Part shown: positions 7,268 through 11,811 of the stretch, piece after piece | Layout of the letters: each line of letters opens with the position of its first letter | Position numbering within the stretch: the first letter of the stretch is position 1 | Assembly: GCA_003695505.1 (NCBI GenBank) | Contig: RFIY01000391.1 | Location: 1 to 17,376, forward strand | Length of the DNA: 17,376 nucleotides | Source: J088 sp003695505 [NCBI: Candidatus Dadabacteria bacterium] | GTDB lineage: Bacteria > J088 | Reading direction: 5' to 3' | Notes under the pieces: model-generated | Told to the model about the DNA's origin: nothing | Databases searched by the model: none | What the model saw: only the letters and a program-made list of their open reading frames with translations | Translations under genes and position numbers: made by a program

Positions 7268-8791
7268 ATGCACCACCGCGCGCTATTGCTATCCGCCGCA
7301 CTGACGTTATTCGTTGCAACGCCCGCCGCCGCACAACCGCCTGAAGCGCTGACCGCGTGGGCGCCGATCGTCCTGTTGGCGGGCGACGGCGACCCTGCCC
7401 GGGCCATCGCCGAAATCGAACAGATGATGGCGGCCGTCGATGCCGCCGTCCAGGGTCTGGACGCCGACGAACGCACGCTGGCTTTTGCCGCAGAGGTCCG
7501 CAAAAACTTGCGCGCCTTCGATCTGAAGGATTTCTATCGCGCCCTTCCAGACGAGGAAGCCGGCAGCGAATGGCGGCGCCTGACGATTGCCGGTCGCATC
7601 AGCGATGGACGGTATCGGGTTTCGCAATTTCCCAATTACAGCAGCTGGGCCACGGCTGTCTCGACGCTCGGCCGGTACCGCACCGAAAGCGTCGCGCTGA
7701 TTCGTGCCACGCCCCGCGAACTCGAACGCGAGCAACATTACCTGATTGAAGGCCGCGTGGCCGTCGCGCTGGGCAATCTGCAGTGGCGCAATGTCATCGA
7801 AGCGATCGCCGAGCTGCTGCTTTCCCCGACCCGTTACGCCGCGCAGGTATCGGCGCCACCCGTCGAGCAGATCGCCGCTCCGGTCGCCGCTGCGATTGAT
7901 GCCTACGCCGAGGGTTTCCCGCATCTGCGCGATCAGTTACGCGATGTCGGCGACCTGGAGCAGGTCTCGCTCGAAGCAGGGCCAAATCTGCAGTGGTATT
8001 GCGCGACGGGTCGTGGTCGCGCCCGCATCGAAGCGATGGAAGCGCGTTACGAGGAACTGGCCGATTTTCTGGAAGGGCTCGACGAACTGGCCCGCATCCG
8101 CATGCAATGGCTCGATCCCAAGGGCCGAACGCTGTACGACACGACGATCGATACCCGCGAACCCACGGTGTCCTTCCGCTTCTGCTCGCGGGATGGCGTG
8201 CTGCTGCCATTTTCGGGCCGCACGGTATACGCGGATGAACCGGTTGATCCCTGGGGGCCCCAGCTTGCGGAGACCCGCGCGCTGGTCGACGCACATTTCA
8301 AGGTACTGGGACTGAAGATCGACGTACTGCGGCTGCCAATCGAGCTGCACTATCACCCCACGACCGCCCGGGTTTCGGCACGCCTCGTTGCCCGGGAGCT
8401 GCCCGATATCAAGGTGTCGGGCTACGCGCTCGGATTCATCTCGCCGAAACTGATCGACTTCTTCATTCCGGGGAACATCCAGTCGATCGCCTATGACTTC
8501 GCTCGGGCCATGCTGCAGGGCGATGATGGCCGTGGCGTCGTTACGAACGCCGCCTTCGGTCCGCAAGCGGCCGAACGCTTTGCCGTGTTCGAACTGGGCA
8601 TGCGCACCGAGATCCTCAACAACTTCATGGTCAAGTTTGCGGCTCGCGCGGCGCTGAAGCGGTTTCTGCCCGACGACGACGCACGCGCGGACCTTGCACG
8701 CCTGCTCCGCGACAGCCGCGAAGCCTTCCGCCTCGACCTGGCCGAGTTCGCCAACATGGTCGCGTTGCCTCAACCACCACCCCAACCATGA
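7268..8791 (+). CDS. Exported protein of unknown function
   Basis: This encodes 507 residues. ATG codons at 7262 and 7268 compete; ACGAGG at 7254-7259 is eight bases from the second, so I use 7268. Residues 1-22 are a clear Sec signal (MHHRALLLSA then an A-rich end T-P-A-A-A) with cleavage likely before Gln23. There is no lipobox and no later membrane segment, so it is probably soluble in the periplasm. The mature part is mostly helical, with a central region around residues 270-370 that looks beta-rich. A conserved-looking stretch near residue 400 (F-F-I-P-G-N-I-Q-S-I-A-Y-D-F) comes before a charged helical end. No catalytic motif was found. It overlaps the next gene as ATGA (8788-8791), which ties it to the glycoside-hydrolase-like lipoprotein. 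Family not recognised. Confidence 0.82.
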   Translation: MHHRALLLSAALTLFVATPAAAQPPEALTAWAPIVLLAGDGDPARAIAEIEQMMAAVDAAVQGLDADERTLAFAAEVRKNLRAFDLKDFYRALPDEEAGSEWRRLTIAGRISDGRYRVSQFPNYSSWATAVSTLGRYRTESVALIRATPRELEREQHYLIEGRVAVALGNLQWRNVIEAIAELLLSPTRYAAQVSAPPVEQIAAPVAAAIDAYAEGFPHLRDQLRDVGDLEQVSLEAGPNLQWYCATGRGRARIEAMEARYEELADFLEGLDELARIRMQWLDPKGRTLYDTTIDTREPTVSFRFCSRDGVLLPFSGRTVYADEPVDPWGPQLAETRALVDAHFKVLGLKIDVLRLPIELHYHPTTARVSARLVARELPDIKVSGYALGFISPKLIDFFIPGNIQSIAYDFARAMLQGDDGRGVVTNAAFGPQAAERFAVFELGMRTEILNNFMVKFAARAALKRFLPDDDARADLARLLRDSREAFRLDLAEFANMVALPQPPPQP

Positions 8792-9903
8792 TCCGGTTTG
8801 CCTGCGGCGTCGCGCTGGCCCTGATCCTGGCCACGGGGTGCGACGCCCCCGGAGGGCAGGCCGCATTTCGACCCGAGCGCGACAGCGACGGGCGCTGGAC
8901 CGCCGCCTCTGCGCAGCAGTGGTATGCCGCCCAGCCGTGGTTTGTCGGCGTCAACTACATTCCTGCCGATGCCGTCAATGAACTCGAAATGTGGCAGGCG
9001 GACACCTTCAACCCCGACCGTATTGACCTCGAACTGGGCTGGGCCGAAGCCATCGGTTTCAACGTGCTGCGCGTCTTTCTGCATGACCTGCTCTGGCAAC
9101 AGGATCCGGAAGGATTCCTGACGCGGATCGACCAGTTCCTCGCGATCGCGAATGAACACGGTTTCCGCACATCACTGGTCCTGTTCGACAACGTCTGGAA
9201 TCCCGATCCGCAGCTCGGACCGCAGCCGGATCCGATTCCCGGCATCCACAACTCGCGCTGGGTTCAGAGTCCCGCACAGGCCGAGACCTTGGCCTTTGCC
9301 AGCTCGGTCACGATTCAGGCGCGCCTGCGCGACTACGTCCAGGGTGTCGTCGCCCGGTTTGCAACCGATTCCCGTGTCCTGATGTGGGAAGCGGTCAACG
9401 AACCCGGCAACTCCGACATCGGTGCGGATGCAGTTCCGCTTCTGCGCGCGGCGTTCGACTGGATTCGCGAAGTCGGGCCACGACAACCGGCGACCGCGTC
9501 ATTCTGGAGCGCGTTTCGTGACGACCCGGTCGCCGACGCGATCGCCGAGCTGGCGGACATCCATACGTTCCATAGCTATTATGGCCCGACGCTGACGATG
9601 CAGCTCGTTGGACAGATCGACAACCCCGAACAGCGCCCGGTCATTTGCACCGAATACATGGCGCGATCGATCGGCAGCACCTTCGAGGAGATGTTACCCC
9701 TCTTTCGCGAGGAGAATATCGGCGCAATCAGCTGGGGACTGGTCGCCGGCAGAACGCAGACGTACTATCCGTGGACATCGACCGAGGGCGCACCCGAACC
9801 GGAGCTCTGGTTCCACGACATCCTGCGTGAAGACGGCACACCGCGCTATCCGGGCGAGGTGTCCTTTCTGACCGATCTCCTGCACGCGCAGAAGCGCAGG
9901 TGA
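8788..9903 (+). CDS. Lipoprotein with a glycoside hydrolase (GH5-like, clan GH-A) TIM-barrel pattern
   Basis: This encodes 371 residues. Residues 1-18 are a lipoprotein signal (lipobox A-T-G-C, Cys18). From residue 51 the sequence follows the clan GH-A barrel: W-F-V-G-V-N-Y-I-P near strand 1, G-F-N-V-L-R-V-F (90-97) at strand 2, S-L-V-L-F-D (129-134) at strand 3, and M-W-E-A-V-N-E-P (199-206) at strand 4 with Glu205 as candidate acid/base. H-T-F-H-S-Y-Y (259-265) and V-I-C-T-E-Y (285-290) follow, with Glu289 as candidate nucleophile. I-G-A-I-S-W-G (311-317) is the strand 8 tryptophan region. Both catalytic glutamates are present, so activity on a beta-linked glycoside is plausible. The start has no ribosome binding site and overlaps the previous stop by ATGA. 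The last codon and stop lie inside a 30-bp inverted repeat. The substrate is unknown. Confidence 0.84.
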   Translation: MIRFACGVALALILATGCDAPGGQAAFRPERDSDGRWTAASAQQWYAAQPWFVGVNYIPADAVNELEMWQADTFNPDRIDLELGWAEAIGFNVLRVFLHDLLWQQDPEGFLTRIDQFLAIANEHGFRTSLVLFDNVWNPDPQLGPQPDPIPGIHNSRWVQSPAQAETLAFASSVTIQARLRDYVQGVVARFATDSRVLMWEAVNEPGNSDIGADAVPLLRAAFDWIREVGPRQPATASFWSAFRDDPVADAIAELADIHTFHSYYGPTLTMQLVGQIDNPEQRPVICTEYMARSIGSTFEEMLPLFREENIGAISWGLVAGRTQTYYPWTSTEGAPEPELWFHDILREDGTPRYPGEVSFLTDLLHAQKRR

Positions 9904-9927
9904 CAGCTTTCAATTCTTCAATTCTGC
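9898..9927 (+). repeat. Left arm of 30-bp perfect inverted repeat
   Basis: This starts AGGTGACAGC and ends CAATTCTGC; it includes an 8-bp unit TTCAATTC repeated in tandem at 9909-9916 and 9917-9924. It contains the final Arg codon and TGA stop of the upstream gene. Pairing with 10101-10130 is exact over all 30 positions and stops sharply at both ends. Confidence 0.95.
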
Positions 9928-10100
9928 ACCCTCCTCTGGCGACGACGCTTCAACCCGCAAGACCGGTCTGGCAGCCGCACCTCGACAGAGGCCCCCCGTC
10001 AGAACTCACGGCACGGCCAATAACCCGTCAGAGGCTCCAAAGTGCGGTCCACGCTTCGCTATCCGAACGAGCTGAACCGCCCTGGCACGCCGCGCGCGCG

Positions 10101-10130
10101 GCAGAATTGAAGAATTGAAAGCTGTCACCT
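10101..10130 (-). repeat. Right arm of 30-bp perfect inverted repeat
   Basis: This is the exact reverse complement of 9898-9927. Read on the minus strand it follows the convergent lipoprotein gene directly, sharing the last two bases of its TAG stop. Both transcripts would therefore carry the same 30-base tail sequence and could pair only within a long 173-base loop. Confidence 0.95.
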
Positions 10131-11811
10131 ACTGGCTGGAGGTTGTCAGAACCTGTTCGAGTTCGGCATCGGGATTGAACTCGAGCCGCGTTCCGTCATC
10201 CAGATTCTGAATCGCGCCCTTCAGCGAGCCGTCTGCATCGCGCGCGACCCAGGCGACACGTCCGCCGCCGACATCGGCGCGCTCGATAATCGCGCCACTC
10301 GCTGATCCATCGAACAGTGTCACCTTCTCGTCCCCGTTCATCCGGATCGCCTGCAACAAGGATGCGCCAACGCGCGCGACGATCCAGTCCGCTGTCAGGC
10401 CGTAGGCGGTCGGATCTTCTCCGGCGGCAATACCGTCTGCAACATCGGTGAACGGCAACGGGCCGGCGACCCAGGTAATCGTGCCGTCCGGATGCATCGC
10501 GCAAACGTCGATCGTCAGAGTCGATGGTCCGGCATAGATCTTGCCGGACTCACCGCACAGATTGCGGGCCACGAACCAGGTTGACGTGCCGCGATCACTG
10601 AACAGCGGATAGGGCCGCTGCATGTTCAGAAACGCGTGCGCAACGTCGATGTCGGTAAAATTGGCGTTCCCGTAGCCGAATGAGATCGTCTGCCCGTCAG
10701 CCGTTCGGACCGAACGGATCGGCACCGTCGTAAAACTGTCATCGCCGTTGACGCGCACGAGCGACGGCTCACTGACAGCCTCTGGATGCCCGTCCACGGG
10801 GGTCCCAAAAAACAGCTCGTCACCAACAGCCCATTCGAGCGTCCAGGCCGATGTCCAGTCACCGTCCCGTGTATCGAGTGTAAATTGTTGCCCGCTCGTC
10901 CCACCGCCTTCGCTGCCGGTCACGAACGGGCCGTCCACGCCGTTGAACGTCAGATCCGTCCCGTCGATGTCGAGATGATCCACTTCCCAGAGTGCATCTC
11001 CACTGATCCGGATGATGTCGCCGTTGGCCATCAGCGCGTCACCCGCATCATTCTCGCCAACGTAGCGGCGGGCAAAGAGCTGGTCAAAACCGCTGACCCA
11101 CGTCCCTTGCGCGCAACGCGACTGTTCGCGGTCGAGTCCGTCATGGCAAAGCACGACCGAATCGGGCGGACAGGGCTTGTCGAACTGCGGCTGCTCCTGG
11201 ATGCACCAGGTATGGAACGCCGGCTCGCCATCATTGGGAAACCAGGCCAGAACCTCGACCGGACGGACAACCGACTGCACGATGGCCGTGGACGCGACCG
11301 GGAATTCAAGCGGTTCCGCATCGGCGAGCGCGGGATCTGTGATGCGGAAGACCGTCCGATCGAAGTCGCCGCACGTCGCATCCGGCAACCACACCGACGC
11401 GCCGGTATCGGCGGGATTCAGGCCAGAATTGCAGGCGAGAAACCCGACGAGCACCGTCGTTTGCATCAACAAACCATTGCGCAGTACATGCACGCTATCG
11501 GCAACGAAATCTCCGGCCAGCAATGGATCGCCATCGGCGCCAAAGGTCACGAGATTGGAAACGACCGTCGTTGCGGTGGGCCCGCCCTGCAGCGGAACGA
11601 GCAGTTTGCTGGAAGGAGCGCCCGTTGGCAGGATGCCGAGCACGTCGTTGCGAACATTCAGCGTCAGGCCATCGTGGTCGACGGCACCCTGCGCCGCGGC
11701 CTCAATCGCACCTTCTGTGTGCTCGGGCCGCCCCGGAGCATCCTCACCGAGAAAGCACCCCCCGGCAAGGGGCATGATTCCGAACAATACCGCAACAAAT
11801 CCAGCGCGCAT
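10129..11811 (-). CDS. Large predicted lipoprotein of unknown function
   Basis: This encodes 560 residues. The start is clear: GGAGG lies six bases before the ATG at 11811. Residues 1-19 form a lipoprotein signal (MRAGFVAVLFGIMPL) with Cys19 in L-A-G-G-C, a slightly non-canonical lipobox. An acidic, Ala-rich linker follows to about residue 48. The rest is beta-rich with several short units of the type D-G-T-I-T-W-V-A and G-D-E-K-V-T-L-F-D, suggesting a beta-propeller or repeated beta-sheet domain, but the units are too divergent to number. Several paired cysteines occur (for example around C-I-Q-E-Q and C-P-P-D). It is separated by 120 bp from the thioesterase gene and may have its own promoter. 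The 3' end borders the inverted-repeat element. No enzyme family recognised. Confidence 0.83.
   Translation of the reverse strand: MRAGFVAVLFGIMPLAGGCFLGEDAPGRPEHTEGAIEAAAQGAVDHDGLTLNVRNDVLGILPTGAPSSKLLVPLQGGPTATTVVSNLVTFGADGDPLLAGDFVADSVHVLRNGLLMQTTVLVGFLACNSGLNPADTGASVWLPDATCGDFDRTVFRITDPALADAEPLEFPVASTAIVQSVVRPVEVLAWFPNDGEPAFHTWCIQEQPQFDKPCPPDSVVLCHDGLDREQSRCAQGTWVSGFDQLFARRYVGENDAGDALMANGDIIRISGDALWEVDHLDIDGTDLTFNGVDGPFVTGSEGGGTSGQQFTLDTRDGDWTSAWTLEWAVGDELFFGTPVDGHPEAVSEPSLVRVNGDDSFTTVPIRSVRTADGQTISFGYGNANFTDIDVAHAFLNMQRPYPLFSDRGTSTWFVARNLCGESGKIYAGPSTLTIDVCAMHPDGTITWVAGPLPFTDVADGIAAGEDPTAYGLTADWIVARVGASLLQAIRMNGDEKVTLFDGSASGAIIERADVGGGRVAWVARDADGSLKGAIQNLDDGTRLEFNPDAELEQVLTTSSQ

Follow-up and report, generated by a model that had tools for sequence, protein, structure and literature searches.

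A family of short inverted-repeat elements with matched ends and unrelated cores, probably served by a Y1 transposase, in a Candidatus Dadabacteria genome

What kind of sequence fills the whole gap between two convergent genes, ends in perfectly complementary arms and gives both genes their stop codons? Here, we examine such a segment, 233 bp in total, in contig RFIY01000391.1 (the window, 17,376 nt, called C110 among the contigs of its genome) of J088 sp003695505, a Candidatus Dadabacteria bacterium with an assembly (GCA_003695505.1) of 2.83 Mb in 395 contigs, 84.5% complete. With a probability of about 0.8, the segment belongs to the TIRYT/TIRtron class: a non-autonomous element, built as a head-out dimer of terminal inverted repeats (TIRs), that is or once was mobilised by a Y1 HUH transposase encoded on another contig of the same genome, C159. 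The kind is already known, TIRYTs and TIRtrons being in print; the peculiarity lies in copies with the same ends and different cores.

A repeat family and a Y1 transposase gene

The two arms, at 9898-9927 and 10101-10130, are complementary at 30 of 30 positions across 173 nt, matching the exact 30-bp ends of the original prediction, which had been made from the letters of the window. Each arm reads, in order, AGGTGACAGC, TT, CAATTCTT, CAATTC and TGC, and the tandem that had been noticed is TTCAATTC, present twice in each arm (in the left arm at 9909-9916 and 9917-9924, with p printed as 0.000 against 2000 shuffles). A chance palindrome occurring once was ruled out both by the small expectation for a 30-bp inverted repeat (about 1.3e-10, given the base composition and a spacer of up to 1000) and by further copies in the genome. 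The exact motif GGTGMCAGCTTTCAATTC occurs at nine sites in five loci of the host, with none for the reversed-pattern control, making the arm multi-copy rather than single-copy; the motif is absent from the 144 other genomes compared, none of them nearer to the host than the same domain. A comparison of methylmalonyl-CoA mutase, meant to indicate the closest phylum, reached 66% identity at best and was not decisive. Four of the five loci are head-out inverted pairs, of 233 bp (C110), 366 bp (C391), 279 bp (C199) and 249 bp (C169), and partial arm matches lie on C323 and C273. At the exact junctions of the four pairs, either of two choices of boundary gave no direct repeat of 2-12 nt, so the missing flanking duplication, claimed for one copy, extends to all.

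The fifth locus is a lone arm (C159:1022-1051). It lies 107 nt upstream of a gene extending from 914 downwards, with a product beginning MPRQRRTFVPNGYYHVIQRGVNRR. This protein matches Y1_Tnp (PF01797) above cut-off and NCBIfam NF047646 (REP_Tyr_transpos) at 84.2 bits against a cut-off of 80, and its HVH motif aligns with that of TnpArep in PDB 4er8 (E 2.9e-5). The original prediction had proposed a small mobile family and a search for a Y1-type transposase of the kind associated with repetitive extragenic palindromes (REPs). Four inverted pairs and an arm beside such a gene support the family and its transposase, with mobility itself inferred. The second arm of the C159 TIRtron would lie out of view, because the contig end cuts the transposase gene.

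Two further Y1 genes of the host, on C342 (52% identical to the C159 protein) and C94, are likewise cut by contig ends; they are 93.8% identical over 422 bp, and a second transposase is therefore present as two similar copies. These loci, C342:1-734 (L069) and C94:10636-11467 (L111), represent a second TIRYT of the same genome. Upstream of its start, the C342 gene has the head GGGGTCAGACATGA, which fits the consensus GGGGWSAS at 8 of 8 positions; comparable motifs were located close to the C94 gene. The underlying search at three mismatches returned seven sites against three in the control, so that its weaker sites mean little.

Classical miniature inverted-repeat transposable elements (MITEs) of insertion sequences are short, bounded by TIRs and without a transposase gene, and the host elements resemble them in each of these respects. 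Perfect TIRs are typical of DDE elements, which speaks for a MITE of a DDE-type insertion sequence. Such an origin is highly improbable here: the target duplication is missing from all four pairs, the head fits the TIRYT consensus, and the arm adjoins a Y1 rather than a DDE transposase gene (no search of the host genome was aimed at DDE transposases). The host elements further differ from classical MITEs in having no shared core.

Spread across other species was tried as a further possibility and was not supported by pattern searches of genome_contigs and viral_contigs, which may leave out records of the window's own genome. The pattern GGTGNCAGCTTTCAATTCNTNA returned ten stretches in genome_contigs and GGTGNCAGCTTTCAATTC two in viral_contigs, and none of the twelve had an exact reverse complement of CAGCTTTCAATTC within 2.5 kb. 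Five of the ten came from one Prevotella metagenome-assembled genome and belong to a different repeat. This genome, Prevotella sp. UBA3757, carries another dispersed repeat with GGTGGCAGCTTTCAATTCTTAACAA (L057-L060, L062), whose longer context is conserved in the four copies not cut short.

Related loci and the published class

At E 1e-25 or better, 34 of 145 genomes, counting the host's, encode relatives of the C159 protein. The survey set comprised 74 listed loci in 33 genomes outside the host, of which 71 were testable, with at least 60 nt on both sides (L089, L206 and L221 were left out for short flanks); at first look, 16 of 28 candidates in G029 and 16 of 25 in G040 were scored. A locus was taken to have TIRs when an inverted repeat scoring at least 14 linked the 300 nt upstream of the start to the 500 nt past the stop. 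By this criterion TIRs flank 34 of the 71 loci, against 39 of 3000 cross-pair controls. They are spread over 19 of the 33 genomes, with G040 alone giving 11 (of its 13 loci) and the others 23 of 58. The consensus GGGGWSAS is matched at seven or eight of eight positions in 25 of the 34 arms (3.2% of shuffled arms), and three survey arms (L190, L212, L224) have GGTG-type heads. An internal tandem at an offset of 6-10 reached p<0.05 in eight of the 14 arms that were long enough, four of these eight being from G040, and at L213, where the script picked the wrong head, the arm has TTGACTTA twice by eye. Of the four host arms tested by shuffling, two show a clear tandem, the C110 arm and the left arm of C391. 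The tandem is thus a frequent, inconstant trait of such ends. In G134 (for example at L081 and on contig C42), tandem and inverted arrays are built from a TIR unit about 36 bp long, with 100 matches in that one genome at up to two mismatches and none in the control.

The names TIRYT and TIRtron, along with the head consensus, were given by Di Nocera et al. 2013 (PMC3733652); this paper and the other two cited here are drawn on for passages of their running text. As described there, many TIR repeats occur in dimers or clusters (PMC3733652), 20 of 26 described TIRYTs fall into TnpAREP subclass 2.1 (PMC6006769), and the GGGGWSAS head is held by many, though not all, published TIRs (PMC3733652, PMC6006769). 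The host shares with this class a Y1 HUH transposase related to TnpAREP that lies next to the same repeat, a GGGGWSAS-like head, and TIRs that are both dispersed and in dimers. Of the host heads, GGTGACAG fits at 7 of 8 positions and GGTGCCAG at 6 of 8, a level that 26.6% of shuffled arms also reach. Differences from the class include the host head, GGTG[AC]CAG instead of GGGG, spacers of 173-306 nt that are unrelated in sequence, and a C-terminal helix-turn-helix that is only weakly detectable. Neither a tandem within the arm nor unrelated spacers in TIR dimers were found in the text of PMC3733652 or PMC6006769; figures and supplements lay outside this scope, and absence from print is not claimed.

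The elements also recall REP dimers (REPINs) with their REP-associated tyrosine transposases (RAYTs), as both are inverted pairs of a short repeat, which in the REP case are thought to owe their movement to a Y1 transposase acting in trans (PMC2817692, PMC3733652). By eye, however, the host arm starts with (A)GGTGACAGC, without the 5' GT[AG]G foot of GTAG-type REPs, and holds no GC-rich hairpin or palindrome.

Several observations weigh against assigning the C110 segment to a mobile TIRYT family. By the same criterion, 37 of the 71 testable relatives have no TIR, and the tandem is non-significant in two of the host's own arms (p 0.097 in the left arm of C169, 0.589 in the right arm of C199). 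The C159 gene runs off the start of its contig with only the upstream arm visible, and its C-terminus matches Bac_DnaA_C at 16.4 bits (E 0.0094) against a Pfam cut-off of 31.5. The four cores are related at shuffle level, which is unexpected for recent internal-deletion derivatives. In addition, the comparison set holds no second strain and no genome nearer than the domain, and REPtrons reportedly do not transpose as a unit (PMC6006769).

On the TIRYT interpretation, the transposase would recognise the G-rich arm head, and perhaps the tandem 8-mer, on single-stranded DNA, cut at the arm tips and rejoin the ends without duplicating the target. DNA between two head-out arms would thereby be carried along, and the C110 copy would have landed at the junction of two convergent genes, where its GGTGA head happens to give a stop codon.

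Matched arms around unrelated cores

The four cores (58-68% GC) give local scores of 17-25 against one another, with shuffle maxima of 23-29, and even the highest score, between C110 and C169, equals its own shuffle maximum. Accordingly, the relatedness over full length that joins MITE copies was not found among the four elements. None of the cores has a second copy in the assembly, and the C110 core has no significant match to the other three or to the transposase genes. The C391 core and the contig end of C159 score 28, above the maximum of 26 in 60 shuffles, but the match spans just 21 nt at 81% identity (E 0.32), and 20 comparisons were made in all. Decayed transposase genes were also sought in the cores, by tblastn with 32 transposase sequences on the four elements, and the matches (best E 0.008), short and spread over all four, were taken as chance. 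Each strand of the C199 element (L037:211-489) has one frame that stays open for 86 codons between stops.

Short pairs without a transposase gene are also found in G040 and G071, and five of those in G040 were compared by their cores (leaving out the G040 C31 and G071 C56 pairs). In contrast to the host, four of the five have clearly related cores (scores of 88-105, shuffle maxima up to 22), like ordinary miniature elements, and the fifth, of 343 bp, has a partly related one (27-49).

The arms behave differently from the cores. Within an element they match at 30, 27, 27 and 27 of 30 positions; between elements the mean is 24.4 and the maximum 29. Among the 105 possible pairings of the eight arms, the true one has the highest sum. 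This bears on a rival reading, in which two lone TIR units inserted independently on either side of resident DNA and the core is old local sequence that never moved. Most of the listed arm matches in G014 are, by eye, without a nearby partner, as separate insertion would predict. In the host, each of the four loci with two arms is a head-out inverted pair, the true pairing of arms is the closest of the 105 (though the right arm of C199 and the lone C159 arm agree at 29 of 30), and at C110 the element makes up the entire intergenic space and its arms bear both stops. We therefore regard separate insertion as quite unlikely.

Two accounts of the host copies are left, in that either they are old, with decayed cores and arms that were conserved or converted, or the arms carry arbitrary DNA. 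A specific form of the latter, tentative and on balance unlikely, is that the transposase defines an element by its two head-out arms only. The family would then consist of interchangeable carriers, each copy with different captured DNA, and the arms of a copy would be alike through copying from one another, for example in a fold-back single-strand intermediate.

Gene context, stop codons and outlook

Features of the window are collected in Table 1. At C110, the intergenic space between the convergent genes equals the element, and the segment thus fills the gap as proposed, with one TGA inside an arm and the other gene's TAG, created at the right-arm junction, overlapping the other arm. A preference for gene ends, which had been suggested from this copy, is unsupported, since only one of the four pairs lies between convergent genes. 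The C391 pair lies 15 nt past the stop of a GST-like gene, and 23 nt from its far end the contig breaks off; the C199 pair lies upstream of a SurE-like open reading frame (ORF), and the C169 pair is flanked by divergent TauE-like and Fur-like ORFs, of which the TauE-like one can be read from a start inside the element (all gene names by eye). Provision of stop codons by the element is likewise seen at one pair of the four, C110.

Table 1. Coordinates of the element and its flanking genes in the window
Feature	Positions	Strand	Basis
Left terminal inverted repeat, AGGTGACAGCTTTCAATTCTTCAATTCTGC	9898..9927	+	30/30 match to right arm; copies elsewhere in genome
Arm head, GGTGACAG	9899..9906	+	7/8 to TIRYT consensus GGGGWSAS (PMC3733652)
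Tandem octamer TTCAATTC x2, left arm	9909..9924	+	Sequence; shuffle test
Core, 173 nt, 68% GC, single-copy in assembly	9928..10100	.	Sequence comparisons
Right terminal inverted repeat	10101..10130	-	30/30 match to left arm
Tandem octamer, right arm	10104..10119	-	Sequence
GH5 cellulase-family ORF, 371 aa, TGA 9901-9903 in left arm	8788..9903	+	ORF list, domain match
560-aa ORF, TAG 10131-10129 overlaps right arm	10129..11811	-	ORF list

For REPs, the idea of a supplied stop codon has precedent: termini of GTAG REPs frequently provide the stop of flanking ORFs, and in two diagrammed genomes convergent REPs mostly lie within 20 bp of both ORF ends (PMC3733652). Three intact homologues of the GH5 gene (L175-L177) terminate at nearly the same place, give or take a few residues, so that the TGA in the arm sits at a natural gene end; the hits L178 and L179 gave no information on this point. 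When the flanks are joined, this gene reads through for 14 aa and its convergent neighbour for 56 aa; with one junction A kept, the two become 25 and 17, 25 and 0, or 57 and 68 aa longer. Given these several possible extensions, the original stops cannot be told. The 560-aa ORF itself has no Pfam or NCBIfam match at E 0.001.

The position between convergent stops would also suit a long stem kept as a bidirectional terminator or as a protector of mRNA 3' ends, with any mobility long past. The RNA fold is far stronger than those of shuffled sequences (z -6.7), owing to the 30-bp stem, yet any perfect inverted repeat folds comparably. By eye, no T-run follows the stem; copies elsewhere sit upstream of genes, and a consensus scan of 9700-10330 gave no terminator-like site, although its loop limit of 8 would exclude such a stem anyway. 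We consider this role decidedly improbable. No known RNA was found by Rfam at gathering threshold in the window or at the four pair loci.

Flanks around the insertions hold palindromes in some cases. At C169, CCGCCCCC and GGGGGCGG surround the element (0.5% of shuffles are as good), which counts as weak because it is poly-C; C391 has 8 bp with one mismatch (7.7%), C199 has 3 bp (34%) and C110 none (81%). Insertion into palindromes is suggestive only, and the C169 flanks are reminiscent of REPs reported inside palindromes, one of the form CCGSSCC..GGSSCGG (PMC3733652). Spacers of REP dimers offer a further comparison: most are 20-100 bp, and those between outward-facing tags tend to be conserved, but some differ in size as well as sequence (PMC3733652).

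For the class as a whole, a little-studied group of transposases gains a host that has no close kin among the genomes searched, and the 71-locus survey sharpens the anatomy of its ends, which combine a G-rich head with a tandem in eight of 14 testable arms. Moreover, copies with the same ends and different cores raise the question of whether any DNA between two head-out arms is mobilised by the transposase. If the arms do carry interchangeable DNA, the family would act as a cargo vehicle, a few hundred bases long, that swaps its cores, and would not be a lineage of deletion derivatives.
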